This document shows, piece after piece, positions 2,908-50,693 of a stretch of DNA of 64,000 bases. The stretch is from positions 3,574,217-3,638,216 of the forward strand of contig OX639992.1 in assembly GCA_951828515.1 (NCBI GenBank), given 5' to 3'. Source of the DNA: an uncultured Poribacteria bacterium. Lineage in GTDB: Bacteria; Poribacteria; WGA-4E; WGA-3G. The first letter of the stretch is position 1; each line of letters starts with the position of its first letter. Under the pieces are notes generated by a model. It worked only from the letters and a program-made list of their open reading frames with translations, had not been told where the DNA came from and ran no database searches. Position numbers and translations under genes: made by a program.

Positions 2908-3902
2908 CCACCAGACAACGGCAGTCTGACCTTCCCATTGTCACGCTGTTGCGAGGTTAAGAAGCCAATAATAATCTGGACGACCTTATACCCCTCGGTT
3001 CCAGGCGAGACGGGTTCTCCACCCTCTGTGATAAGACCTACCAACTCTCGGGGACCCGCAGGAATGCCAGTGATGTCCCACGTTGGTGCCTCAATCGTCT
3101 CAACAACATCGTCCTGATGGAGTGTTGCTCCCTTGTCACTGATGAGAATATAACCGTTGGTGCCAACAATCTCAACGCGGAACCCGGAGAGGGTTGTCTT
3201 TGGACCACCAGCATAATAGCCTCGCACACCGTTCGCGAAGTGGATATATCCGTGCGCCGATGGTTCTGTTGCAGGGTCATGTCCGCCATCACCTTTATAC
3301 TCGTTATAGTCTGCATAGCCTTCTTCTAATTCGGCAGAGACCCACTCTGGATCTGAATCCGCGAAATAGCAGATAGCATCGACAAGGTGTGTTCCGTTGC
3401 GGAAGAGCATCGCGCGACCCCCACTCAGGGTGCCGATGACATACTGGACATCTCCAATGCGTCCACCACCGACGATAACATCTTTGGTATGCCGCCACAA
3501 AGGCTGCCACCGACGGGTATGGTCGATCGAGAGAATAGTGCCGTTCCGATCCGTTGCTTCCAGCATCCTGTCTGCGTCTGCAACGCTGGTCGCCATCGGT
3601 TTTTCACAGAAGATACCCTTTACACCGGCATTCGCCGCGTCAACAACAAGGTCGGCATGTCGATGGTCGGACGTCGCCACTGTCACGATGTCCAAATTCT
3701 CGGCAGCAAGCATCTCTTGATGGTTGGTATACAAGGCGATGTTGCTCCAGTTGTCCTGATATTTTTCCTTGAATGCATCCAATGTGCTTTGAACAAAATC
3801 GCAGCCGGCAGCTAATTCGACGTTCGGCAAATCTACTAATCCCGATACGTGAGTCGTACCAATACCGCTACAACCGATAACACCTACGCGTAATTTTGCC
3901 AT
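2904..3902 (-). CDS. Gfo/Idh/MocA family NAD(P)-dependent oxidoreductase
   Basis: This is a cytosolic dehydrogenase of the glucose-fructose oxidoreductase/inositol dehydrogenase superfamily. The Rossmann fold starts with VGVIGCSGIGTTH (residues 5-18); the family EKP motif is present as FCEKPMAT and holds the usual catalytic lysine. The second half is the alpha/beta substrate domain. I chose the second ATG because it sits eight bases from GGAGG; the ATG two codons earlier is only two bases away from it. The gene is monocistronic and convergent with the ABC ATPase. The substrate, probably a sugar or inositol, is not determinable from sequence. Confidence 0.9.
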   Translation of the reverse strand: MAKLRVGVIGCSGIGTTHVSGLVDLPNVELAAGCDFVQSTLDAFKEKYQDNWSNIALYTNHQEMLAAENLDIVTVATSDHRHADLVVDAANAGVKGIFCEKPMATSVADADRMLEATDRNGTILSIDHTRRWQPLWRHTKDVIVGGGRIGDVQYVIGTLSGGRAMLFRNGTHLVDAICYFADSDPEWVSAELEEGYADYNEYKGDGGHDPATEPSAHGYIHFANGVRGYYAGGPKTTLSGFRVEIVGTNGYILISDKGATLHQDDVVETIEAPTWDITGIPAGPRELVGLITEGGEPVSPGTEGYKVVQIIIGFLTSQQRDNGKVRLPLSGG

Positions 3903-12762: not shown

Positions 12763-12850
12763 GGTGGGATGGCTGAGTGGACGAAAGCGGCGGTCTTGAA
12801 AACCGTTATGGCGCAAGCCATCGTGGGTTCGAATCCTACTCCCACCGCCA
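12763..12850 (+). tRNA. tRNA-Ser(UGA)
   Basis: Acceptor GGTGGGA pairs with TCCCACC; the anticodon loop CTTGAAA gives anticodon TGA, decoding UCA and probably other UCN codons. A long variable arm (ATGGCGCAAGCCAT) identifies a class II tRNA. CCA is encoded. Confidence 0.95.
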
Positions 12851-12869
12851 TTATAGATAGAGATACAAA

Positions 12870-12960
12870 GGTTGGAGTGGACGAAAGCGGCGGTCTTGTC
12901 TTTTGATAAAGGGCGTTATGGCGCAAGCCATCGTGGGTTCGAATCCTACTCCCACCGCCA
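12870..12960 (+). pseudogene. Broken duplicate of tRNA-Ser(UGA)
   Basis: This is a partial copy of the preceding tRNA. A 24-base block from the D arm to the anticodon stem and about 48 bases of the 3' half, including CCA, are identical. But the 5' acceptor strand is reduced to GGTTGGA, which no longer pairs with TCCCACC, and the anticodon loop is replaced by a longer unrelated stretch (TCTTTTGATAAAGGG). It cannot fold as a normal tRNA. Confidence 0.85.
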
Positions 12961-12963
12961 TAG

Positions 12964-13048
12964 GGAGAGGTGCAGGAGTGGTTGAACTGGACTGCCTGCT
13001 AAGCAGTTATGGCGTAAGCCATCGTGGGTTCGAATCCCACCCTCTCCG
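12964..13048 (+). tRNA. tRNA-Ser(GCU)
   Basis: Acceptor GGAGAGG pairs with CCTCTCC; anticodon loop CTGCTAA between ACTGC and GCAGT gives GCT, decoding AGY. The long variable arm is present. CCA is not encoded. Confidence 0.95.
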
Positions 13049-13143
13049 TTTTATGAACAATAACCAGAGGACAGAGAACTGTAGGTCGATTCAGGTCTCG
13101 TAACTCCGTCCTACGTTTTTTCGATCTCTGACGTACAGCATAC

Positions 13144-13217
13144 GCGCCTGTAGCTCAGTGGATTAGAGCATCTGACTACGGATCAGAAGGCCGGGGGTTC
13201 GAATCCTCTCAGGCGCT
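13144..13217 (+). tRNA. tRNA-Arg(ACG)
   Basis: Acceptor GCGCCTG pairs with CAGGCGC; anticodon stem TCTGA/TCAGA encloses CTACGGA, anticodon ACG. Adenosine 34 of this tRNA is the bacterial substrate of TadA, whose gene starts 23 bases downstream. CCA is not encoded. Confidence 0.95.
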
Positions 13218-13240
13218 TCAAAGGTATTTGTTGGAAAAAT

Positions 13241-13699
13241 TTGGATAACGATTTTTTCTGGATGGGACAAGCGCTTAAATTAGCGCAACAGGCAGGCGAA
13301 AAAGGAGAAGTGCCAGTTGGTGCCTTGCTTGTTAGAGGCGAGGTCCTGATCGCTGAAGCATTTAACTTACGCGAAGCACATGGCAGTCCTATCGCCCACG
13401 CGGAAATGCTTGTTCTGCAAGCCGCATCTGAAAAAATCGGCAACTGGCGATTTGTTGATACAACCCTATATGTGACGTTAGAGCCTTGCCCAATGTGTGC
13501 GGGGGCGATCGTCTTAGCACGTATCCCAAGAGTGGTTTACGCAACAACGGACCCGAAATCAGGGGCAGCCGGGACGCTCTATAATATCCTTCAAGATGAA
13601 CGTTTGAATCATCGGGTTGAGTTGGTGAGTGGGGTATTAGCAGAAGAAAGCGGTGCCCTCCTGAAGTCCTTTTTTCGGCAACGTCGTAATAAAGTGTAA
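13241..13699 (+). CDS. tadA: tRNA-specific adenosine deaminase TadA
   Basis: TadA is a zinc enzyme that deaminates A34 of tRNA-Arg(ACG) to inosine, so that one tRNA reads CGU, CGC and CGA. The 152 residues match the family length. The zinc/catalytic motif HAEM (about residue 53, the H-A-E of the deaminases) and PCPMCAGA (about residue 83) are intact. The start is TTG, behind TTGGAAAAAT, only 23 bases from the end of tRNA-Arg(ACG), so enzyme and substrate are probably cotranscribed. The tRNA-Ser, tadA, SRP RNA, dnaX, ybaB, recR order repeats the arrangement known from Bacillus. Confidence 0.95.
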   Translation: MDNDFFWMGQALKLAQQAGEKGEVPVGALLVRGEVLIAEAFNLREAHGSPIAHAEMLVLQAASEKIGNWRFVDTTLYVTLEPCPMCAGAIVLARIPRVVYATTDPKSGAAGTLYNILQDERLNHRVELVSGVLAEESGALLKSFFRQRRNKV

Positions 13700-13764
13700 A
13701 AAGGTTTATAGAAGGCATGGATATGTGCCACTCGTTACTATGGGTTGGAGAGATTACATCAGAA

Positions 13765-13849
13765 GGAGAGATGCAGGAGTGGTTGAACTGGACAGTCTCG
13801 AAAACTGTTGTGGCGTAAGTCACCGTGGGTTCGAATCCCACTCTCTCCG
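13765..13849 (+). tRNA. tRNA-Ser(CGA)
   Basis: Acceptor GGAGAGA pairs with TCTCTCC; anticodon stem ACAGT/ACTGT encloses CTCGAAA, anticodon CGA, decoding UCG. Long variable arm present; CCA not encoded. A run of seven T follows directly. Confidence 0.95.
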
Positions 13850-13907
13850 TTTTTTTCTTTAATGGCAGGTCAAAATAACTGTCGAAAAACGTTTTTTTAC
13901 CACTTGT

Positions 13908-13980
13908 GGGGCAGTAGCTCAGTTGGGAGAGTGCATCCCTCGCACGGATGAGGTCACGGGTTCAAATCCCGTCTGCTCCA
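13908..13980 (+). tRNA. tRNA-Ala(CGC)
   Basis: Acceptor GGGGCAG pairs with CTGCTCC and the discriminator is A; anticodon stem CATCC/GGATG encloses CTCGCAC, anticodon CGC, decoding GCG. Normal short variable loop; CCA not encoded. Confidence 0.93.
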
Positions 13981-13984
13981 TACG

Positions 13985-14009
13985 AAATTGTGCTATTAAA
14001 GCACAATTT
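13985..14009 (+). terminator. Possible hairpin terminator after tRNA-Ala
   Basis: Arms AAATTGTGC and GCACAATTT form a perfect nine-pair stem around TATTAAA, five bases after the tRNA. The stem is AT-rich and the following T-run is weak, so termination is plausible but not strong. Confidence 0.4.
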
Positions 14010-14116
14010 GTCTTCGCTTTACATTCTTCGGTCCGGAATTGGGTCGAGAGTTGTTTTTATCAGATTTCCCATCTCATATCGCGTGCGGTTTGATGAGATG
14101 CGCTTGAAAATTTTAC

Positions 14117-14208
14117 GGAGAGATGCAGGAGTTGGTTGAACTGGCATGACTGGAAATCATGTGTGCTGTTTTGCAGTACCGTGGGTTCGAATCCCACTCT
14201 CTCCGCCA
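14117..14208 (+). tRNA. tRNA-Ser(GGA)
   Basis: Acceptor GGAGAGA pairs with TCTCTCC; anticodon stem CATGA/TCATG encloses CTGGAAA, anticodon GGA, decoding UCY. Long variable arm with a TGCTGTTTTGCAG hairpin. CCA is encoded. Confidence 0.94.
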
Positions 14209-14270
14209 CTTTTGATGCGGCTTGCGAGTCGAGCTTGCTGGCTATATAACCGCTCAGATAATTAACGCCT

Positions 14271-14541
14271 TGGCTATGCTAGGTGGGGAGGTAGCGGTGC
14301 CCTGTATCTGCAATCCGCTAAAGCAGGACTGAATCCCCAGTATGCGGCCAGTTTCTGTGGGGACTGTCCCACGCACGTAGTGTTGATGGTTGGGTCTTGA
14401 GCAACGTGCGCTTATTGAACCCCGTCAGGTCCGGAAGGAAGCAGCGGTAAATGAGTTGCTCGTGTGACGCAAGGGTGCCTGACCTGAGCTAACGACGCGG
14501 GCAACGCCTGGAGAAACTTGTCAACCCTGGGTGCATAGCCA
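14271..14541 (+). ncRNA. ffs: Signal recognition particle RNA, large (Alu-containing) bacterial type
   Basis: Terminal helix GGCTATGC (14272-14279) pairs with GCATAGCC (14533-14540). The 5' part (CTAGGTGGGGAGGTAGCGGT) is the Alu domain seen in the Bacillus scRNA. The universally conserved Ffh-binding helix 8 appears as CAGGTCCGGAAGGAAGCAGC near 14427-14446. At about 270 nt it is the long form, unlike the 114-nt E. coli 4.5S RNA. It lies between tRNA-Ser(GGA) and dnaX, the same place as in Bacillus. Confidence 0.95.
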
Positions 14542-39048: not shown

Positions 39049-40374
39049 TCAACGTGGGTCTATAGAGATTTTCGCGAGAAAAGAGTTGACTTTCCCTTCC
39101 CCGCTGAACGAATTACCGGTAGCCCCTAACTTAAAATGTGTGCCTTTGTCAAAACGGTGCGTGATCCTTCCACCCTTACCCGGTATAATCCCTGATGCCG
39201 AGGTAAGGACACTTTTAGGCATACCGTTCGTGGAAAGTTCGCTATCGCTTGTAAACAGAATGAAGGCACCAGCACCCTCTGCACTCCCGATCCAAAGGTC
39301 GATCGTGAGCATACCGCCATTTTTAAATGCCGTCGTATCAATCTCAACGACAGTATAATCTTGATAGCCTGCCGCCGGTGTTTGGAAAATGCTCAGAACG
39401 TCTTGTGAAGGTTTTTCATCGTTGAGCACGACGTTCTTTGCCTGTGTGGAGAGAAACCTCGGTCTATATTCCGATGGATCTGCATTCGGCGCAAATCCAT
39501 CACCTTTACTCGGTGTCGTAGATTTACCAGCTTGGGTCCGCACATCCGGTTTCGATGTGAGATTTAGAACAATAGGTGTGTCAATGAGTTCTACCGTCAT
39601 TTCCGATGGGGCATCGAAATTGTAAGGCTGTTGGAAACGTGTTAAATACTGACTGCTTGCTCCAAGTGCCATCACAACAAGAATAAGGCTTGAAGCGGCA
39701 ATTGCCCACGGCACAAATGGTTTACCGAAGGAAGGGGATGCAGGTTCAATACGGGAAACTTCCTGCATGATTTTCTCGGTGAGATTCGCCCTAATTTGGA
39801 AACCCTCCAACGCCTCTTGGATCATGGGTTCCGCCTTCTTTAAGCGGTGTCGCGCACGACGGAGCCGACTCTTAACCGTACTCGCTGACACACCCAAAAA
39901 CCGGCTAATCTCTTCACACGTCATTTCTCCAAAATAATGGAGTGTAACGACAGTGCGTTCACTTTCCCGCAGTCGGGCAAGCAATCTTTGGACGATGTCG
40001 CGTTGCGCTTCAGTAGCCGCTTTCTCCTGCTCCTCGGCAATATATTGAGAATACGTCCCACCTTCTATCAGTTCGGTGTCCGTATCTTCCAGCGATTGCG
40101 TCTGTATCCGTTTCTTTCTGAGCCATGCGTAGCATTGACGTGCCGCGATTCTATAAAGCCACCCCGCAAAACGACGCGGATCCCTCAGTGTTGCCAGTTT
40201 CTTATAAACCCGCAGGAAGGTATCCTGTGTAATTTCCTCAGCAATATGGAAATCGCCTACCTTCCGCCACGCGAGTGCGTGAACCTGCTTTTGATATTTT
40301 TTTACCAATTGCGCAAAAGCGTTTTCATCGCCTGTGAGACTGCGTTGAATTAGTTCAACATCGTCGTTTTTCAT
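39049..40374 (-). CDS. Membrane-anchored ECF sigma factor with C-terminal beta-rich domain
   Basis: Residues 1-185 are a complete ECF sigma factor: region 2 (ITQDTFLRVYKKLATLRDPRRFAGWLYRIA) and region 4 (MTCEEISRFLGVSASTVKSRLRRARHRL). A short linker (ANLTEKIMQEVSRIEP) leads to one membrane helix (about 221-239, WAIAASSLILVVMALG). The exported part ends in a 120-residue domain (about 318-441) containing GYQDYTVVEIDTTAF, MLTIDLWIGSAEGAG, FDKGTHFKLGATGN and NSFLAKISI. The same domain ends three neighbouring SelN-like selenoproteins. Sigma regions would be inside and the shared domain outside the cell, as in transmembrane one-component regulators. GGAGG precedes the ATG. It is the obvious candidate to read the GCAACC/CGTCAT promoters around it. 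Confidence 0.88.
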   Translation of the reverse strand: MKNDDVELIQRSLTGDENAFAQLVKKYQKQVHALAWRKVGDFHIAEEITQDTFLRVYKKLATLRDPRRFAGWLYRIAARQCYAWLRKKRIQTQSLEDTDTELIEGGTYSQYIAEEQEKAATEAQRDIVQRLLARLRESERTVVTLHYFGEMTCEEISRFLGVSASTVKSRLRRARHRLKKAEPMIQEALEGFQIRANLTEKIMQEVSRIEPASPSFGKPFVPWAIAASSLILVVMALGASSQYLTRFQQPYNFDAPSEMTVELIDTPIVLNLTSKPDVRTQAGKSTTPSKGDGFAPNADPSEYRPRFLSTQAKNVVLNDEKPSQDVLSIFQTPAAGYQDYTVVEIDTTAFKNGGMLTIDLWIGSAEGAGAFILFTSDSELSTNGMPKSVLTSASGIIPGKGGRITHRFDKGTHFKLGATGNSFSGEGKVNSFLAKISIDPR

Positions 40375-40482: not shown

Positions 40483-42480
40483 TCACTTGACATCATAAAT
40501 GAACCAGCTACCTTCCACTTTTCGCATCTTAACGAATACTTCCTGTTGTGGTGCCATCGGCACTCTCAATCGGAAGTGGAATTCGTCACCTACATATTCG
40601 CTGCTCAAAATCTCCATTTCACTCAACATTTCACTTATCTGAGCGCGCATATCTTCTGGCACATCGGTAAAATCACCTCCAAGTGTTTCTCTGGCATCCC
40701 CTGCAAGCATCGGGAGTATTGTCTCTCCATCAAGATCCTTAAATGCCTTCACGAAAGTGTTCATTGCATCTTCCGCAGATTGTTCTGGACGCACTGGTGA
40801 CACTTTTCTGGATGCTGTTTCCTGATTCGGTTCGACAGAGATTTTTGCCCAAAAAGCGTTGACACTTCCTTTCTGGCTGAACCAATTGCCTGTACCCCCC
40901 AGCTTAAAAATTTTACCCCGATCAAAACGATACTTGATTGTCCCTCTTTTACCGGGTGGAACATCCCATGCAGAAGCAAGTGCTCCGTGAGGCATACCCT
41001 CTGTCGGGAGTTCAGTGTCAGCATCGTAAAGATCGAACGATCCCTTGGGTTCAGCATTCCCTACCAGAATATCAATAGTAAGCAGACCGCCGCTTTTAAA
41101 CGCTGTCGTATCAATTTCAATGACAGTATAGTCTTGAAAACCGCGTCCTGGTGCCCGAAAAATATTGAGGACCTCCCGTTTCGGTTTTTCACTGGTGAGT
41201 GTAACTTTCAAATCCTTTGACACAGCATCTAATTCAGGAAAAGACCCTGAATCAGGTTCTAATGAAGGTTTCGAGGTCTCCTCCCGAAATCCGGGAAGTT
41301 TTCCATCTAAGGCTTCCGTGAGAAATAAAAGGTACCCGTTAGCACCGTTGTAAGGTGATATGCGTTCATTAACGGGGAGTCTACCCATTAGTTCAAATTC
41401 CGTCGATAGCACCAGGGAATCCGCAGGTGATTTTTTCTTCCATCCTTTCATGATTGCTTGTGCCAAGGCGTGGGTTGTGTCAAATGTTGTACCTTCGCGC
41501 TCGCGTCTCTTATCAATCGGATCCCGCAAACTCGGGACCCGTCCTAATTTGGAATTCGGCACCCATGTGTTGATGAAATTTTCATTCAAGAACTCTATAA
41601 TTTGATCGTCGGAGAGGACACCTGCCCTCAAGGATTTACCGCTCCCTCAGCACGACTCATCAGCAAGCGGGCCATCTATTGAGATGACGTGAATCGGTTT
41701 TTGCTGCGCTGGTGCCATTTCCAATGCTTCCTCCAATGAAACCCAGTTGATTTGCTGCGATTTGTAGAAACGCAATATCAGCTTACGTTCAGCTGCTTCT
41801 TGTGTAATTGATTCTACAAACTTGATGTCTGGGGCAATCTCTCTGATCTCAGCACGGAGTTCTATTTGTGGACAAAAACCGACATCTATAGTTCTGGTAC
41901 TGTTTCGTCCAACATCAAAATTCAGTACACCTTCAGGAACGTACATCTTGAAAGAGGCAACCTTTTCCTTAATTCGATCAATGACAAGATACCCAGTGAA
42001 TTGAGACGGAGTGAACCGACCATCTTCTAAGATGAATTCTGCATGGATGCGGAACACGATTTCAGCATATTTATCATTATAGGCGCGCAAGCATGCCCAC
42101 AAGCCATAGGAATCCCCCGCATTCATACTAATATCCAGACTTGGCTTAGGGTAGAGTTGGCGTAGTAATTCCAGCACACCCCCTTCTTCGATCTTCCAGA
42201 GATCGCCAACAGAAACTGCTTCAGAGGGCAGAAAAGTCCGAAAAACCGATGCAGGATACCGCTTCTCGGGTTCAGCAACTCGTAGATTTGCCAGTTCATC
42301 CCACTCCACATGGAAACCATATTGTGTATATTCAATCGGGGCAATGAACCCTTTTACTAACACTTCCGATGCGTCATTAAGATTAAGTGTAATTTTGTTA
42401 TCAGCTGATGAGTGATTATCAGCACCGAGTTGTCCACTCATCACCACCAGAATAAGAAACCCAACCGTCAAAATTTTCAT
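40483..42480 (-). CDS. Selenoprotein N-like protein A, read through UGA as selenocysteine
   Basis: The frame from ATG 42480 (AAGGAG before it) meets TGA at 41649-41647 and continues in the same frame to 40483, giving 665 residues with Cys277-Sec278 in DESCUGSGKSLR. The N-terminus is a signal peptide (MKILTVGFLILVVMSG), so the protein is exported. Residues about 120-260 match animal SelN: VFRIHAEF, FTPSQFTG, MYVPEGVLNFDV, PQIELRA. After Sec come LNENFINTWVP and a thioredoxin-like remainder. The shared beta-rich domain (GFQDYTVIEIDTTAF) follows, then an extra C-terminal NTF2-like segment (DAMNTFVKAFKDLDGETILPML) found only in this copy. A CU pair suggests a thiol/selenol redox role. Conventional gene calling splits it at the TGA. 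Confidence 0.9.
41614..41629 (-). promoter_or_regulatory. Bacterial SECIS-like stem-loop, gene A
   Basis: Seventeen bases after the UGA, GAGGGC pairs with GUCCUC (one G-U) around the tetraloop AGGU. A GU in the loop 25 or so bases from the UGA is what SelB-dependent bacterial SECIS elements need, and AGGU is also in the fdhF loop of E. coli. Confidence 0.75.
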
Positions 42481-42572
42481 TTTCAAATCTCCTTGTAATA
42501 ATTGACAATAACATTCTACATCAATAATGCCTATACAACAAGTTGTTGCTCACGTAGATTCTAATCTCGATA

Positions 42573-42605
42573 TATAATGACGCGGGTACCAGACAAAACG
42601 GTTGC
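42573..42605 (-). promoter_or_regulatory. ECF-type promoter of SelN-like gene A
   Basis: Minus strand GCAACCGTTTT (42605-42595) and CGTCATTATA (42582-42573); 17 bases between GCAACC and CGTCAT. The leader down to the ATG is nearly identical to that of gene B. Confidence 0.85.
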
Positions 42606-42696
42606 TTAATTCCACGGAGGCAGCTTTAAAAAAATGTAACATAGAGAGAGGACTCCGTTACAAGTAAAGTTGTATTGAATACACAAAACCCGTGTA

Positions 42697-44367
42697 TTAA
42701 TTTGAGTCTCTTTTCTCAACCCCGGTTTCTACAGAAATTGTAGCAAGAAACGCATTGGTACTTCCGTTTTTACTAAACCAATCACCGGTAGCCCCCAACT
42801 GAAAGGATTGACCGCGCTCAAAGGTATACATAATTTTCTCTATTCCACCGGGTGGAATACCCCACGCTGAAGCAAGGGCATTCTTAGGTACTCCTTCTGT
42901 TGGCAGTTTACTGTCACCTGCAAACAAATCAAACGAACCAGCAGCTTCGGCATGTCCAACAGAAATATCAATCGTGAGCATACCACCCTTTTCAAACGCT
43001 GTTGCATCAATCTCAACGACAGTATAATCTTGATAACCCGGTTCTGGTGTCCGAAAAATATTCAGGATCTCCTGTGAGGTCCGAACATCGTTAAGTACAA
43101 CTTTCAAGTTACTCAATACAGTCTCCGAGTTGAGAGGCTCTGGTTCTGAAGTATTTTCACCCAACCCAGGAAGTTTTCCGTCTAAGGATTCCTTAAGAAA
43201 CGTTAGGTAACGTTGCCCCATGTTTGATCCGATAAGATCATTGACGGGTTGTCTACCCATCACTTCAAGATCTGTCGAGAGAATCAAAGAATCCGATGGT
43301 GAACGCTTCTTCCAGCCTTTCATGATCCCTTGTGCCAAAGGGCGCATTCTGTCAAACGGCTGGAACCCTTGCTCGCGGCGCGCTGTCATGTATACTTTTT
43401 TATTCGGCGTGCGCTCCAATTCAAAATTCGACACCCATGTGTTGATGAAATTTTCGTTCAAGTACTCAATAATTCGGTTATTGGAGAGGACAACTGCCCT
43501 CAGGGCTTTGCCGCTCCCTCAGCACGATTCATCCATTAACGGTCCATCAATGGAGATGGCGTGAATAGGCTTCTGCTGTGTTTGTGCCATTTCCAATACC
43601 CGATCCGGCGGTACCCAGTTAATTTGCTGTGATTTGTAGAAACGTAGTATCAGCGCGTGTTCAGCGGTTTCTTGGGGAATGGATTCTGCGAATTCAACGT
43701 TTTCCAGAAGATCTTGTGTCCCAGCACGAAGTTCCATTTGGCAAAAACCACCCGCTACAATACTATGGTTTGCGTCTTTGTCTCTCTTCCAGTTAACATC
43801 AAAGTTTATTGGACCATCAGGAACGTACATCTCAAAGAAGGCAACCTTATCTTCGATCCGATCGATCACAAGTTGTCCTGTAAACTGGGATGGAGTAAAC
43901 CATCCATCTTGTAGTTTGAACTCTGCATGAATCCGAAATACAATGTAGGCAAATTGATCGTTGTAAGCGCGTAAGCACGCCCACAAGCCATAGGAATCCC
44001 CCGAATTGATATGCATATTCAAATTCGGGTTGGGGTGCAGCTGCCGAAACAAGGTGAGTGCCCCTTCCGCCTCAATCCTCCATGTTTCACCAATTGAAAC
44101 CGGTTCGTCTGGAAGAAAAGCGTGGAAAACCGATGCAGGATACCGCTTCTCAGGTTCAGCAGCGCGCAGATTCATCAAGGTGTCCCACTCCTTAAAAGAG
44201 GTCTCGGATAAGTTCTCCCCAACAGGCGCGATGAAGCCTTTCACGAATATTTCTGCTGTCCCATCAAGGTTAAGCGTGATTTTATTAGGGGTTGCCGAGT
44301 GGTCATCAGCATTTAGTTGTCCGCTCATCATTGCCAAAATAATGAAACCAACAATCCAGATTTTCAT
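42697..44367 (-). CDS. Selenoprotein N-like protein B, read through UGA as selenocysteine
   Basis: The frame from ATG 44367 (AAGGAG) passes TGA at 43521-43519 and ends at 42697, giving 556 residues with Cys282-Sec283 in DESCUGSGKALR. It has a signal peptide (MKIWIVGFIILAMMSG). SelN-like landmarks are IVFRIHAEF, WFTPSQFTG, MYVPDGPINFDVNW, QMELRA, then NENFINTWVSN after Sec. The shared beta-rich domain (GYQDYTVVEIDATAF...LGATGDWFSKNG) forms the C-terminus; the NTF2-like tail of copy A is absent. Closest paralogue is A, including about 120 bases of nearly identical leader, so this is a recent tandem duplication. Confidence 0.9.
43486..43501 (-). promoter_or_regulatory. Bacterial SECIS-like stem-loop, gene B
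   Basis: Same place and stem as in gene A (GAGGGC/GUCCUC, 17 bases after UGA); the loop is AGUU and keeps the GU. A competing GCCC/GGGC hairpin is also possible just upstream. Confidence 0.7.
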
Positions 44368-44458
44368 TTTCAATCTCCTTGTAATAATTAACAATAACAT
44401 TCTACATCAACAATGCCTATACAACAGGTTGTTGCTCACGTAGGTTCTAATCTCGATA

Positions 44459-44491
44459 TATAATGACGCGGGGAACCGACAAAACGGTTGC
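44459..44491 (-). promoter_or_regulatory. ECF-type promoter of SelN-like gene B
   Basis: GCAACCGTTTT (44491-44481) and CGTCATTATA (44468-44459), 17 bases between the hexamers. Confidence 0.85.
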
Positions 44492-44608
44492 TTAATTCTG
44501 CATAGGGGCACATGCCGTAAGTAACAATGCTTAAATATTCCCTTGTTATCACTTACAGGATTCTGAAGTTTTGATAAGGATAAAATCATTCTAATTTCTA
44601 AACCTGCT

Positions 44609-45433
44609 CTAAGGAACGACCGCTCTTCTTTTCACATCCGCCCAAGTTGTTGCAACTTTATCACTCGGTGAAACGGCGAGGAAATTCCCTACCATTGTTT
44701 GTTTAATTTCATTGTCACTGAGTGCCCGTCGCCAGACCGCGGCTTCGTCAATAAAACCGTTGATAAATGCATACTGGGATCTATTTTTTGCGCACCCGAT
44801 CCGTAGGTTCGCGTCATTACCACCGAAGAAGTTGAACTCCTTTTTCTTTTTACCTATGACTTTACCATCTAAATAAATTTTCATGGTTTTTCCGTCGTAG
44901 CTTCCAGTAACATGATACCATTTTTGAACACCCATTTTGTGTAGAACTGCGAATTCATGCCGGTTCGTAATCCCTTGTTTCTCCCGCGACCCGAGAAACA
45001 ACACAATCTCTGGTCCGTTACCGATATCGGAACTACCGATACCGTAAGTGCCAGCCCAACCTTCCCCCGAATGGCAACCTTTATCGAGCCAATGCAACAT
45101 TCTTTTGCCTTTCCATGTTTCTTGATAGTAAATCCATGTCATCATTGTTATTTCGCCTGTAACTTTCAGCTTCTCCTGAGCGGGGATACTGACGCAATCC
45201 TGACCATCATCTGTAATGTGAATTGCCTTGCCATATTTGCCTTTCACAATCTTGGTATTCTCAAGAATCTCGGCATTAAGACCATTCCCAGATTCATTAA
45301 CAACCGTCTGATCTTTAACGTTATCAAACGTTAGATAAAAAACGAGTTCCTCATCCAAACTCGCGTTAGCGGAAATCGTCCCAAACAGAATAACAATCCC
45401 CAAAAAAGCAGTACCGATAAATTCTCGTATCAT
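44609..45433 (-). CDS. Secreted LamG/concanavalin-like lectin-fold protein 1
   Basis: The 274-residue protein begins with a signal peptide (IREFIGTAFLGIVILFGTISANA) and folds as one LamG domain: LVFYLTFDNVKDQTVVNESG, ITMMTWIYYQETW, WYHVTGSYDGKTMKIYLDGK, NGFIDEAAVWRRALSDNEI. Such domains bind glycans or proteins; no catalytic site is visible. The chain ends VATTWADVKRRAVVP, a tail shared with the paralogue at 46695 and in part with the protein at 54675. I start at the ATG behind AGGAG; the upstream in-frame stretch lies in the promoter. It has its own ECF-type promoter. Confidence 0.85.
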   Translation of the reverse strand: MIREFIGTAFLGIVILFGTISANASLDEELVFYLTFDNVKDQTVVNESGNGLNAEILENTKIVKGKYGKAIHITDDGQDCVSIPAQEKLKVTGEITMMTWIYYQETWKGKRMLHWLDKGCHSGEGWAGTYGIGSSDIGNGPEIVLFLGSREKQGITNRHEFAVLHKMGVQKWYHVTGSYDGKTMKIYLDGKVIGKKKKEFNFFGGNDANLRIGCAKNRSQYAFINGFIDEAAVWRRALSDNEIKQTMVGNFLAVSPSDKVATTWADVKRRAVVP

Positions 45434-45502
45434 GTTCTCTTTTTCTCCTATAGCGTCTATTACGCTTTCCAAAATTTGCCACACGAATATTGGGTTGATA
45501 TA

Positions 45503-45535
45503 TACAGTGACGCGGATTAAGGACAAAACGGTTGC
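45503..45535 (-). promoter_or_regulatory. ECF-type promoter of LamG gene 1
   Basis: GCAACCGTTTT (45535-45525) and CGTCACTGTA (45512-45503), 17 bases between the hexamers; one base differs in the second hexamer (CGTCAC). Confidence 0.8.
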
Positions 45536-45628
45536 CTAATTCTGAAAACATAAGAAAAATATGATGCCCGGAGCGGAAAGCGCACATAATACCAGAAAAT
45601 CAGTTTTATGGTGATTCTGTCTATAACA

Positions 45629-46651
45629 CTATTTCTTTTTTATTTTTCCCCATACTCTGCTTAGCAGTTGCGATTGTGGCGAAACAGGCAACAAATACAT
45701 AGGGTCGAACCAATCCCCTCCAAAATTCGCATCAAAAACCCGCCCAATATGTGTCAACTGGGTCCGAGTACCACTGTTCACATCAAGTTTGAAAATGTGT
45801 AGACGACCATTAATTTTTTGTGTATAAAGGACTTCTTCTCCATCTGGCGACAATACAGGATACTGTGCCCTTGGACCGGCTTCATCCACAAGTTCTCGGA
45901 GATCAGTCCCGTCCCGGTTCACAATGTAGATTGTCTCCTTATCCAGCCATACGGCGGGGAAACGATCCCCCGGCAAAAGGCGCGGTAAGGGATTCTTATT
46001 CCAAGAAAAAACGATCTTACGCCCCGTTGCCGACCAAAAGGGATGATTTTGCCAAGACGTTGCGGTCCTCGGTAGGAGGTGTTTTTGCCTTCGTGTATGG
46101 ATGTCAATGAGGGCAACTCGACAGGTATCTCCAATATAAGACATATATGCTATTTTCGTCCCATCGGGCGACCACGTAGGATATCTGCCCTCCACGATGC
46201 TCTCCTCTTTTTGTGAACCCAAGGTTGCAACGTGGATATGGAACTTGACACTGTTCCAATTCAGGTGTGTGTAAGCGATCTGTTTGCCATCCGGTGACCA
46301 CGTCGGAGAATCCCTATAAGCCTTTCTTTTCCTCGTGAAGACACGTCGAACATTAGATCCACTCGGATCCATCAGATACAGGTCTCGAATGCTGCCATCA
46401 CGATCGGAGACGAAAAGAATCTCCTCACCAGTAGGAGACCAAACGGCGTTCAGATCATTTGCGCGATGTTGTGTTAAATTCACTTGTTCGCTGCCGTCTG
46501 GATTCATGATGTAGACCTCGTAATTACCGTCTCGTGAAGAGGTGAACAAAATTTTGGCGGTTGTAGGTGCTGTTGCGAAAACGAGGCAACCGCTTACGTC
46601 CAGTATCAACACGTTCAATATAGCAAAAACGAACAACCGTATTGTTTTCAT
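45629..46651 (-). CDS. TolB-like beta-propeller protein, exported
   Basis: The 340 residues start with a signal peptide (TIRLFVFAILNVLILDVSG) and then carry WD40-like TolB repeats: AKILFTSSRDGNYEVYIMNP, WSPTGEEILFVSDRDG, WSPDGKQIAYTHLNW, YPTWSPDGTKIAYMSY, YPVLSPDGEEVLYTQ. The protein is a periplasmic propeller of the TolB/PD40 class; a true Pal-binding TolB N-domain is absent, so it is not TolB itself. ATG 46651 was chosen for the AAGGAA before it. It lies 43 bases downstream of LamG gene 2 and probably forms an operon with it under the ECF-type promoter at 47581. Confidence 0.82.
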   Translation of the reverse strand: MKTIRLFVFAILNVLILDVSGCLVFATAPTTAKILFTSSRDGNYEVYIMNPDGSEQVNLTQHRANDLNAVWSPTGEEILFVSDRDGSIRDLYLMDPSGSNVRRVFTRKRKAYRDSPTWSPDGKQIAYTHLNWNSVKFHIHVATLGSQKEESIVEGRYPTWSPDGTKIAYMSYIGDTCRVALIDIHTRRQKHLLPRTATSWQNHPFWSATGRKIVFSWNKNPLPRLLPGDRFPAVWLDKETIYIVNRDGTDLRELVDEAGPRAQYPVLSPDGEEVLYTQKINGRLHIFKLDVNSGTRTQLTHIGRVFDANFGGDWFDPMYLLPVSPQSQLLSRVWGKIKKK

Positions 46652-46694
46652 TTTATATTCCTTTATGAGGAGATTCTGATTTTGCAAGTAGCCG

Positions 46695-47513
46695 TTAAGG
46701 TGCGATCGCTCTCCTTTTCATATCCGCCCAGGTCGTCGCCACTTTATCACTCGGTGAAACGGCGAGAAAGTTCCCTGTCATGGCTTGTTTAATTTCATCA
46801 TCGCTCAGGGCTCGTTGCCAGACAGCAGCTTCGTCAATAGAACCATTGACAAATGCAGCGTGTGCTCTATCTTTTACACATCCAATTTGAACATCAGCAT
46901 CATTGTCACCAGCTAAATTGAATTTTCTCTCTTCTTCGCCTATGACTTTACCATCTACATAGATTTTCATGGTTTCGCCATCGTAGTTGGCTGCCACATG
47001 ATGCCATTTTTTAGCCACCATTTTGTGTGGACTGGCCAGATCCTTCCGCCCTGTCACATTCCCTTGATTATCCCGTGATCCCAAATATAACCAGATTAGT
47101 GGTCCTCCACCGATATCACCACTCTGAATACCATAGGAGGTCGCCGCACCAGCCGTATGACAGTCTTTATCAAACCAATGTGTTCTCTTACCTATCCATG
47201 TTTCTGGATAATAAATCCATAACACCATTGTTATCTCACCTCTAACTTTTAGTTTTTCCTGAGAAGCGATATTGACGCAATCCACCCTTTGACCTGTGAT
47301 ACGGATTGCCTCTCCATATTTGCCCTTGACAATCTCGGCATTCTCAACTATTTCTGCATCAAGACCATTTCCAGATTCATCAAGAATCGTTTGATTTTTA
47401 ACGTTATCGAACGTCAGATAAAAAACGAGTCCCTCATCCAAACCCGCGTTGGCAAAAGCTATCAACGATAGCATAATAACACTCGAAAAAGCAGCAATAA
47501 ATGCCCGTAACAT
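46695..47513 (-). CDS. Secreted LamG/concanavalin-like lectin-fold protein 2
   Basis: This 272-residue paralogue of the protein at 44609 has the same plan: signal peptide (LRAFIAAFSSVIMLSLIAFANA), LamG body (LVFYLTFDNVKNQTILDESG, WHHVAANYDGETMKIYVDGK, NGSIDEAAVWQRALSDDEI) and tail VATTWADMKRRAIAP. AGGAGG precedes the ATG. It leads an operon with the TolB-like gene. With copy 1 it brackets the TolB-like gene, indicating a local duplication. Confidence 0.85.
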   Translation of the reverse strand: MLRAFIAAFSSVIMLSLIAFANAGLDEGLVFYLTFDNVKNQTILDESGNGLDAEIVENAEIVKGKYGEAIRITGQRVDCVNIASQEKLKVRGEITMVLWIYYPETWIGKRTHWFDKDCHTAGAATSYGIQSGDIGGGPLIWLYLGSRDNQGNVTGRKDLASPHKMVAKKWHHVAANYDGETMKIYVDGKVIGEEERKFNLAGDNDADVQIGCVKDRAHAAFVNGSIDEAAVWQRALSDDEIKQAMTGNFLAVSPSDKVATTWADMKRRAIAP

Positions 47514-47580
47514 GTTTTCTTTTCCTCCTATAGCGTTATTTGAACTTTCTAAAATATGTCATACAAATATCGTGTCGAGA

Positions 47581-47613
47581 TATAATGACGCGGAGGATCG
47601 GAAAAACGGTTGC
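47581..47613 (-). promoter_or_regulatory. ECF-type promoter of the LamG2-TolB-like operon
   Basis: GCAACCGTTTT (47613-47603) and CGTCATTATA (47590-47581), 17 bases between the hexamers. Confidence 0.85.
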
Positions 47614-47744
47614 CTAATTCTTCAAAAAATAATGGAAAATCGGATACATACCTAATAGAAAAAGCCCAACACCACTGATTCTGCATGTATTTAACAGAAA
47701 CGTAGATCTGCAGTCCCGCGTTGACAGGTGGTTTAGGTTAATAT

Positions 47745-47908
47745 AACCCAAGTTGCTACCTAATAGGTCATGGACGTTTCAACACGGATTTTTCAAGGAA
47801 AAACATCTCTTTATACCCCGTAGGGGTGGTATGTCTATAGAAAATCGGGTATTCAAGGAGTTGCACCGCGTAGGGGTGCTATGTAAATGGAAGCTGGCAA
47901 CTTGGGTT
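47745..47908. mobile_element. MITE-like element with AACCCAAGTTGC ends
   Basis: AACCCAAGTTGC (47745-47756) is perfectly mirrored by GCAACTTGGGTT (47897-47908), with partial extension of the match into TTAATAT on the outside. The 164-base element is non-coding and holds two tandem copies of ACCCCGTAGGGGTGGTATGT / ACCGCGTAGGGGTGCTATGT. It ends nine bases from the stop codon of SelN-like gene C. Confidence 0.75.
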
Positions 47909-47916
47909 AATATATC

Positions 47917-49452
47917 CTATTTTTCAAATGAAGGGACGACAGAAACACGCGCCAGAAAAGCGTTGGGAGCACTCTTCTGGTTGCCTACTCCTGTAGCAAC
48001 CAATTTAAAATGCTGTTTACCCCGACCAAAATGGTGAAAGATATGCCCTATGCTATCAGGTGAAACGTTCCACGCGCCAGTCAGTGCTTTATCTGTCGTT
48101 TTGTTTGTCAGAATTTTGGCATCGGCATCGAACAACTCAAATGTTCCAGTTGCTTCACCTGCTCCCACCTGTATCTCAATGTGGAGTATTCCCTGTTCAA
48201 AGGGTGTGGTATCAATTTCAACGACCGTGTAATCTGGTGTATCGGTGTCGGATGCGCTAAAGGTGTGCAAAATCTCCATCAACGCCGTTCCCAAACTGAT
48301 CGGATTTCGATCTAATCTCGACCCTTTTCCCACACGTCTACGCCTTCCGTCAAACGCATCTACAGCATGCTGTAACACTGATAGGTACGCGTGTGGCTGA
48401 TTCCTGTAAGGCAATGCCATCTCTGGTTGATGCATAATGACTTCTGCATCGGGGGTCAGTGCCAAAATGTCCACAGAGTCGGTATAGTGGCGTTTCATCT
48501 CTTTAGCGACAAGGCTTGCTACCTCGCCTTTCGCACCACCTATCAGTTCCAGCAATTCTCGGAGGAGCACCCATGTATTGACGAACTTCTCGTTGAGTGT
48601 CTTTATGACTTCTGAATCGGAGAGCGGACCCGCCCTCAAATTTTTGCCGTTCGCTCAGCACGATTCATCGTCCAAACATCCCCAGACAAGGATGGCATGA
48701 ATCGGACGATTGGTTGCTTTGGCTCGTGTGACCGCTTCACCAACCGGCAGCCAATCAATCTCAGCGAATTTATAGAACTTCAGCTCCAGCGCGCGGTATG
48801 CTTCTTCCGTTGTAATAGCAGTGTCCCACGCGATATCGTCTGGGTCGGTCTCGTCTACAGCGAGGAGTTCCATACGTGGCACAAAAATCATATCCGCTCC
48901 ACCATAGGCATTGAGGTCAACATTGCTATTGCGTGCCGGTAGTGCCAACGAAAACGCGCGAACCGTTCCGCTTTTTAAATTTACCAATATCTTTCCGGAA
49001 AATTGCGATGGAATAAACCTTGCTTCGGACTCCCTCTCATCGTTTGCCTCTTGCCACTCCTGATAGGCGGCAGACTTCAACGTGAATTCTGCATGAATTC
49101 GGAAAGCGATTTCTGCATAGTTTGATGAGCATGCCCGTAAGCAGGCAAAGGCTCCTTCCTCACCGTAACCTAAATCAGCTGTCGCACCCGGATGAAACTG
49201 ATGAAGGAAGCAAACAACACTGTTCGCATCAAGTTCCCAGACATCACCGACTGTTACAGTTGATGACGGAAGAAATGTCTTGAAAGCATCCGCTCTGTAT
49301 TCCTTGATGGGTCGGTTTGGGGACAAGTCGAAGAGTTCAACGTGTTCTGGCAACGCTTTGTGCATACGAAACGTAGAATCCGCAATTGGTTCCCAATGTG
49401 CATGTACCTGTAGACGTGCCGAACTATTTAGGACATTACAAAGATTTATCAC
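47917..49452 (-). CDS. Selenoprotein N-like protein C, read through UGA as selenocysteine
   Basis: The frame from GTG 49452 passes TGA at 48657-48655 and ends at 47917, giving 511 residues with Cys265-Sec266 in DDESCUANGKNLR. This is the most divergent of the four and the closest in wording to animal SelN: HAILVWGCLDDESCU, and LNEKFVNTWVLLRELLEL after Sec. Upstream are IAFRIHAEFTL, FIPSQFSG and PRMELLA. There is no signal peptide: the chain begins where the mature part of A and B begins. The shared beta-rich domain closes the protein (PDYTVVEIDTTPF...FKLVATGVGN). The start overlaps the stop of gene D (GTGA), so it is translationally coupled to D. Confidence 0.9.
48620..48637 (-). promoter_or_regulatory. 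Bacterial SECIS-like stem-loop, gene C
   Basis: Seventeen bases after the UGA, GAGGGCG pairs with CGCUCUC over seven pairs around the loop GGUC. The stem is one pair longer than in A, B and D and its sequence has changed on both sides while pairing is kept; the loop again holds GGU. Confidence 0.78.
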
Positions 49453-50693
49453 TGTTTGTCTCCATTGTCATGAGGCATTCGGTTATTGAAGAAAACATTC
49501 CAATTAGTTGTTGGCTGCGGTTCCAAAGTGTTGTCGTCCAATCCGGGCTTTTTCCCCGCTAATGCTGCCTTAAGAAAGAAAAGGTACGCCTCTTCGTCTC
49601 CAAGTCCTTTCAGTTCGGTATTGAAGAAGTCATTCACAGGCATGCTGCCCATTAACTCAAGTTCCGACGAGATCACCAAGCAATCTACGGGTGAATGCCC
49701 ATTCCAGCCTTTCATAATTGCTTGTGCCAATGGATGACTCCTGTCAAATGTCTTGGATCCACCTTGGTACCTCAGTGCCATGAAGGCTCGTTTTTTTGGC
49801 GTACGTCTTAATTCAACATTCGATACCCAGGTGTTGATGAAATTTCCGTTCAAGAATGCGACATTCTGTTCATCAGAAAGGGCAACTGCCCTCAAGCCTT
49901 TTCCAGTCCCTCAGCACGACTCATCTGCCAGCGGTCCATCTATGGAGATAGCATGAATCGGTTTCTGTTGTGCTTGTGCCATCTCCAACACTTGATCGGG
50001 TGGGACCCAGTTAACTCGCTTCGATCCGTAAAAACGCAGCATCAGCAAATGCTTCGCTTCTTTATGGGTGATGGAAACCCCTGTGAATTCAACATTTTCT
50101 ATAATATCCTTCGTCCCCACACGGAGCTCCATCTGTGAACAAAAGCCAGCATCCGTGCCTTTCCAGTTGAGATCGAAATTTACTGTGCCTTCAGGGACGT
50201 ACATCTCAAAGAATACAACACTCCGTTCAACCCTATCAATAATGAGAGTTCCAGTGAACTGCGACGGTGTAAACCAACCCCCTTCTAACTTGAATTCTGC
50301 ATGAATCCGAAAGGTAATGTCGGCAAATCGATCGTTGTAAGCGCGTAGGCATGCCCACAATCCCCGAGAATCCCCAGAATTGATGTGCATAGCCAAATTC
50401 GGATTCGGATGAAGTTGCCGGAGCAATTCAAGGACGCTGGCTTCTTCAATCTCCCAAAGGTCGCCAACCACAACAGGTTCATTTGGAAGAAACACTTGGA
50501 AAACCGATGCAGGATGATGTTTTTCTGGCTCAGCGACGCATAGGTTTGCCAATGCATCCCACTTTACATGAAAATTGGATAGGGTTTTTTCAATCGGGGC
50601 GATAAAGCCTTTCACCAACACTTCTGCGTCGCCATCAAGATTGATCGTAATTTTGTTAGTTGTTGGTGCTTTATAGATATTAAGAGTTTCCAT
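49449..50693 (-). CDS. Selenoprotein N-like protein D, short form, read through UGA as selenocysteine
   Basis: The frame from ATG 50693 (GGAG before it) passes TGA at 49913-49911 and ends at 49449, giving 414 residues with Cys260-Sec261 in DESCUGTGKGLR. SelN landmarks are ITFRIHAEF, WFTPSQFTG, MYVPEGTVNFDLNW, QMELRV and NGNFINTWVSN. Unlike A and B it has no signal peptide (METLNIYKAPTTNK). It stops at the point where the beta-rich domain begins in the paralogues (NWNVFFNNRMPHDNG), running by GTGA overlap into gene C. D has lost the C-terminal domain and C the N-terminal leader, as though an intervening segment had been deleted. Confidence 0.9.
49878..49893 (-). promoter_or_regulatory. Bacterial SECIS-like stem-loop, gene D
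   Basis: GAGGGC pairs with GCCCUU around AGUU, 17 bases after the UGA. Compared with A and B the inner G-U pair has become G-C and the outer G-C has become G-U, so pairing is preserved while bases change. Confidence 0.75.

Follow-up and report, generated by a model that had tools for sequence, protein, structure and literature searches.

Do the in-frame UGA codons of four neighbouring genes in an uncultured, sponge-symbiont Poribacteria bacterium encode selenocysteine (Sec), and are the stem-loops that follow them selenocysteine insertion sequence (SECIS) elements? The four genes, here called A to D, lie on the minus strand of a 64,000-nt stretch of contig OX639992.1 (the window), in a host genome of 5.85 Mb assembled as a single contig. 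Each gene has a single UGA within its reading frame, set in the motif DESC-U-[GA]-[STN]-G-K, and a scan of the entire window found no other TGA with at least 120 open codons ahead of it and at least 80 behind. The original prediction placed SECIS-like stem-loops at 41614-49893, an interval whose limits, the last base of hairpin A and the first of hairpin D, are right; the stems and loops of all four copies were found where it put them (Table 1), and the 17-nt distance from UGA to stem-loop is exact in 4/4. Stem length is 6 bp in A, B and D and 7 bp in C; every copy has a loop of 4 nt that contains G, and the UGA-to-loop spacing is 23 nt (A, B, D) or 24 nt (C). The loop GU, expected about 25 nt past the UGA, sits at +25/26 or +26/27, and the hairpin energies are -8.9 (A), -8.9 (B), -10.6 (C) and -9.3 (D) kcal/mol.

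Published limits for bacterial SECIS elements are a UGA-to-loop distance of 16-37 nt and a loop of 3-9 nt (PMC13188914, Fig. 2 legend), with a stem of 4-16 bp, a G at loop position 1 or 2 and an energy of -7.5 kcal/mol or lower given in the same source. The hairpins described here, located directly past an in-frame UGA, lie within all of these limits, and the genome encodes the decoding machinery, so that the description as SECIS-like is borne out. Judged from sequence, the hairpins are canonical bacterial SECIS elements, and we hold with high confidence that the UGAs of the family would be decoded as Sec. We suggest that when a ribosome arrives at the in-frame UGA, SelB with Sec-tRNA-Sec would bind the hairpin loop (its G plus the GU) 23-24 nt downstream and the UGA would be read as selenocysteine, not as stop; the products would be proteins with a cysteine-selenocysteine-glycine (Cys-Sec-Gly) motif, a predicted thioredoxin-like middle domain and a likely redox activity.

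To place the four copies in their family, we used 451 protein-profile matches in 225 records, which reduce to 248 distinct 600-nt contexts; four further rows end before the UGA column. The site codon is TGA in 247 of the 248 contexts and TCA in one. A Cys codon is found at the site in 0/248, and TGG, TGC and TGT are all absent. In the TCA member (locus L197, 0-based position 3768, + strand), Ser replaces the UGA, GAG comes next and the hairpin is perfect; this is either a recent loss of Sec or an assembly error. Trimmed to 93 nt, the 247 UGA contexts comprise 232 distinct sequences at 117 loci, and pairing was tested on the 190 distinct 42-nt sequences downstream of the UGA. All six pairs form, in either of two registers, in 183/190, and at least five form in 190/190; orthologues with the same protein and stem-destroying synonymous changes were sought, and none was found. 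The loop carries G among its first two positions in 233/233 sequences, the energy over +16 to +37 is -7.5 kcal/mol or lower in 216/233, and VE/GE members have a loop of 6 nt.

Could this pairing be a mere by-product of the peptide LRA(G/V)xLS and codon bias, in an RNA that has no role? In favour of such a view, the peptide shows high conservation, and copies A and D differ little in energy from shuffled sequence. However, synonymous recoding gives six pairs in a mean of only 1.0% (maximum 3.7% in 300 trials), and at least five of six in 15% as against all of the observed sequences; the peptide LRAxxLS alone is thus insufficient for pairing, as the original prediction had argued. The local energy of each copy is also unusual when compared with synonymous recodings of the same peptide (P = 0.0045, 0.0045, 0.0030 and 0.0055 for A, B, C and D). 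When codons were instead permuted between sequences, with column and amino acid kept fixed so as to test only for covariation, six pairs were retained in a mean of 83.8% (maximum 87.9%, 500 permutations) compared to 96.3% observed; relatedness among sequences inflates any permutation test of this kind.

Codon choice points in the same direction. Arg+7 is encoded by AGG (199) or AGA (33) in 232/232 sequences and never by CGN, although these genes as a whole use AGR for 854/3345 (25.5%) of their Arg residues; at Leu+11 the codon is CTC in 227/232 (background 19%), Leu+6 is exclusively CTG or TTG, and Ala+8 is GCA in 203/209. Other Arg and Leu columns vary, and at a conserved control position, Arg+36, CGN is used in 194/210. 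A position scan with 84 seven-codon windows, run on 90 of the 232 sequences, shows codons +6 to +12 folding 6.44 kcal/mol better than recoded sequence, while the 70 windows away from the site differ from it by a mean of -0.05 kcal/mol (standard deviation 0.30). In one sequence a compensatory change even alters the amino acid, with Leu to Phe at +6 accompanied by CTC to CTG at +11. We thus consider the probability that the hairpin is a by-product to be close to nil.

The evidence for covariation comes from the wider family and not from the four copies. All four have the same 5' arm, GAGGGC; A, B and D vary in the 3' arm alone, by wobble, and the stem of C has its register shifted by 2 nt. Because of the invariant arm, the four copies display wobble and a register shift but no two-sided changes, so that the changes on both sides of the stem that had been claimed for them do not exist at this level; they do appear once relatives are added. 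In register 1, pair 21/30 is GC in 159 sequences, AU in 26, GU in 16 and unpaired in 31 (n = 232), and register 1 is broken at one or more pairs in 34 sequences, 27 of which have all six pairs in register 2. An independent covariation counter, applied to 69 distinct rows picked for diversity, found 11 cells with two-sided changes against 2.9 in shuffles, with 0/500 shuffles as high. A protein tree was built from 242 sequences with codons +1 to +13 left out; by parsimony estimate, pair 21/30 changed from GC to AU nine times and pair 18/33 from GC to CG once, register 1 gave way to register 2 eight times, and no tip has fewer than five pairs. Divergent genera contribute 18 matches, 17 of which extend across the site with one UGA each; the 18th covers profile positions 70-169, past the site. 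Two of these divergent members (L261 and L262) have CAGGGCG/CGCUCUG, in which the outer pair is compensated, and a third (L260) has a mismatch at the outer pair. Extending the covariation test to more orthologues, as had been proposed, therefore reveals two-sided compensatory changes.

The host genome has what Sec decoding would require: a tRNA-Sec (78.1 bits, anticodon TCA) adjoining the SelB gene, SelB itself (347.5 bits, above cut-off, with the winged-helix domains SelB-wing_2 and SelB-wing_3), SelA (594.3 bits) and SelD (359.4 bits). SelD is itself UGA-containing, with U as the catalytic residue in KCAGUASK (locus L225, position ~1531). The family is present in 64/84 Poribacteria genomes and in 0/302 genomes outside the phylum, and all 73 related loci with organism titles are from Candidatus or uncultured Poribacteria. 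Among the 64 carriers, SelB is found in 59 and tRNA-Sec in 57; the five carriers without SelB are 73-83% complete. One or the other is present in 61/64, and the three genomes without both are likewise 73-83% complete. SelB is also found in 16/20 non-carriers, and Sec machinery therefore does not imply the Cys-Sec-Gly family. A passage of PMC5649159 reports that SelA and SelB co-occur in most sponge-symbiont bins.

A covariance model of the 45-nt element gave 402 matches, in the same 64 genomes and with up to 15 per genome, and 0 matches in the 20 non-carrier genomes; since the model was built from members of carrier genomes, its absence result alone is independent. In a search of the host genome for other users of the element, the eight family members alone score well; the next three matches (E 0.03-0.16) fall outside genes of the family.

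Stem-loops past stop codons can favour read-through in general, and the hairpin could accordingly promote insertion at the UGA by a near-cognate tRNA (Trp or Cys), or regulate termination, without any selenium being involved. Against this stand the complete Sec machinery of the genome and the presence of SelB or tRNA-Sec in nearly all carriers, the match of loop, spacing and G rule to SECIS elements, and the fact that the site is never occupied by a Trp or Cys codon; we find such a role highly improbable. Less credible still, to the point of being negligible, is the idea that the genes are pseudogenes whose UGAs arose by disabling mutation or assembly error. All titled relatives are metagenome-assembled genomes, which leaves room for errors, but the TGA recurs in all contexts except one from many assemblies, and the genes run on after it for at least 112 open codons (median 274.5, 210 genes). 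In codons +14 to +30, substitutions at positions 1, 2 and 3 number 9571, 5688 and 21176, the third being dominant; by this pattern, the frame downstream of the UGA is under protein-coding selection.

Several observations weigh against reading the hairpins as SECIS elements. One mismatch is present in 7/190 sequences, and the lone TCA member still keeps its hairpin. Compared to dinucleotide shuffles of the 43 nt past the UGA, the energies of copies A and D are unremarkable (z = 0.05 and -0.10; B -2.06, C -1.85), and for copy B the minimum-energy fold of the free RNA over the full 43 nt is another hairpin, not the SECIS. Folding energy by itself is thus weak evidence; it is the pairing and codon use across the family that decide the matter. 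A search at Rfam gathering thresholds gave no support for the hairpins by itself. The hairpin after SelD's own UGA is weak (-5.7 kcal/mol), and so does not corroborate the family's hairpin type. Outside the stem, the nucleotide level is held as well, with UGC at -1 (231/232), GGG at +1 (175/203 Gly codons) and AGY at +2 (199/199 Ser codons), and this constraint is not explained by the SECIS stem. Finally, over +1 to +42 the SECIS stem is part of the minimum-energy fold of the free RNA in only 123/233 sequences, because GGGAG at +1 to +5 pairs with the 3' arm; it is part of that fold in 224/233 over +6 to +50 and in 215/233 over +12 to +45.

The last two points would fit a larger functional RNA, in which pairing of GGGAG with the 3' arm forms a switch that is opened by a ribosome reaching the UGA: GGGAG is conserved at the nucleotide level, and free RNA often has this other pairing in its minimum-energy fold. 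Yet the alternative helix (+1 to +5 with +31 to +35) shows no covariation, being paired at 0.886 compared to 0.885 after codon permutation, while the variable SECIS pairs exceed their null (0.930 paired versus 0.905 permuted, maximum 0.911) and RNAalifold recovers the SECIS stem alone. We therefore regard a switch as unlikely, although it is the strongest of the alternatives. When UGA is in the ribosomal A site, the ribosome occupies the first downstream nucleotides, and the SECIS would for this reason be left free. Compared to other bacterial SECIS elements, the one described here differs in that a single 45-nt element is common to a whole protein family, with up to 15 copies per genome, and in having two alternative stem registers and a competing upstream arm.

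What, then, do these genes encode? The family scores below the cut-off of every Pfam and NCBIfam model; the best Pfam match is Thioredox_DsbH (PF03190; E 0.0036), with weak matches in 13/47 members, and PDB sequence searches gave nothing usable. The middle domain of B was folded alone because the full-length comparison is dominated by the C-terminal domain, a beta-sandwich (PliG, Z-score 11.5). The resulting model, with a predicted local distance difference test score (pLDDT) of 92.1, has a thioredoxin-like fold and matches DsbH (2ju5, Z 12.0, 126 residues, root-mean-square deviation 3.5), AGR3 (3ph9, Z 10.8), DsbD-gamma (1vrs, Z 9.8) and E. coli thioredoxin (2trx, Z 8.3). In this model the Cys-Sec pair is placed in the loop preceding the first core helix, in the motif C-U-[GA]-[STN]-G-[KR]. 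The Poribacterial family shares its predicted fold with DsbH, AGR2-AGR3, DsbD-gamma and thioredoxin but has no CxxC; neither CxxC nor UxxC nor CxxU is found at the site. Going by position in the model and not by residue alignment, Sec would stand at the place of the first CxxC Cys and Gly at that of the second. We suggest that the Cys-Sec-Gly proteins are probably thiol/selenol oxidoreductases that act via the vicinal Cys-Sec pair. The leader of gene B suggests export; a hydrophobic leader was detected by a crude test in 66/210 first-ATG gene models, so that export of the whole family is not supported as a general property.

Mammalian thioredoxin reductase carries a C-terminal Gly-Cys-Sec-Gly and thus shares the vicinal Cys-Sec followed by Gly, but in the Poribacterial proteins the pair lies in the predicted thioredoxin-fold active-site region and not in a C-terminal tail. 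An adjacent Cys-Sec is also seen in KCU-star, SaoC, SaoL, HgcA and MbdU (PMC13188914, Table 1); NCBIfam models of CU-motif families gave no match to the Poribacterial family at E up to 1. That table, in a 2026 review, lists 119 prokaryotic selenoprotein families or subfamilies, none of which has the same motif and architecture as judged by name, motif and NCBIfam searches. A literature search, which left most subscription papers and preprints outside its reach, returned no account of a Poribacteria selenoprotein and found the motif strings in unrelated papers only; in PMC9999580, Poribacteria and selenocysteine are linked in the reference list only. As the hairpins lie within the SECIS limits and no listed family matches, the RNA would be a standard SECIS and the protein family appears undescribed.

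According to a section of PMC13188914, nearly all selenoproteins have Cys homologues, and searches for Cys/Sec pairs rely on this. Cys homologues aligned at Sec, the usual selenoprotein trait, are not seen for the Poribacterial family, and the Cys-Sec-Gly proteins apparently form a new family of selenoproteins for which no Cys form is known. A large family of this kind is just what Cys/Sec-pair searches would miss, and it would give a reason for Poribacteria keeping the Sec machinery; its several hundred natural variants of one SECIS are also a resource on which bases SelB needs. We see about an even chance that the fuller picture holds in all its parts, that is, an obligate selenoprotein family of thioredoxin-fold oxidoreductases, at least partly exported, with Cys-Sec-Gly replacing CxxC, with no known Cys form, confined to Poribacteria, and with up to 15 SECIS genes per genome that have gone through about eight register switches while spacing and loop G were kept.

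Table 1. Genes, UGA codons and hairpins of the four copies (window coordinates).
Feature	Position	Strand	Description	Basis
Gene A	40483..42480	-	Predicted selenoprotein of the family; extra C-terminal region beyond beta-sandwich domain	Read-through translation, alignment
Gene B	42697..44367	-	Predicted selenoprotein, 556 residues; hydrophobic N-terminal leader, then beta-rich N domain	Translation
Gene B domains			Thioredoxin-fold middle domain, residues ~244-399; C-terminal beta-sandwich, ~421-548	Predicted model (pLDDT 86.9), structure comparison
Gene C	47917..49452	-	Most divergent among the four; start uncertain (GTG)	Translation, alignment
Gene D	49449..50693	-	Predicted selenoprotein without C-terminal beta-sandwich domain	Translation, alignment
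UGA of A (predicted Sec codon)	41649-41647	-	DESCUGSGK motif, reading frame open either side	
UGA of B (predicted Sec codon)	43521-43519	-	In-frame in translation	
UGA of C (predicted Sec codon)	48657-48655	-	In-frame in translation	
UGA of D (predicted Sec codon)	49913-49911	-	In-frame in translation	
Predicted SECIS hairpin A	41629-41614	-	GAGGGC-AGGU-GUCCUC, 17 nt past UGA	
Predicted SECIS hairpin B	43501-43486	-	GAGGGC-AGUU-GUCCUC, 17 nt past UGA	
Predicted SECIS hairpin C	48637-48620	-	GAGGGCG-GGUC-CGCUCUC, second register, 17 nt past UGA	
Predicted SECIS hairpin D	49893-49878	-	GAGGGC-AGUU-GCCCUU, 17 nt past UGA	

In the gene models, C is without the N-terminal leader and D without the C-terminal domain, and the TGA stop of D is overlapped by the GTG start of C (49449-49452). 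Between B and C (44609-47513, minus strand) lie genes for two laminin-G-like (Laminin_G_3) proteins and one PD40 beta-propeller protein. An extracytoplasmic function (ECF) sigma factor with a hydrophobic segment is encoded at 39049-40374 (minus strand); its C-terminal domain and the C-terminal beta-sandwich of selenoprotein B share 51% identity over 152 residues, and the sigma factor may sense via this same domain. Further away in the window, at 12763-14538 on the plus strand, seven clustered tRNA genes, including four for tRNA-Ser, are followed by a bacterial large signal recognition particle RNA.

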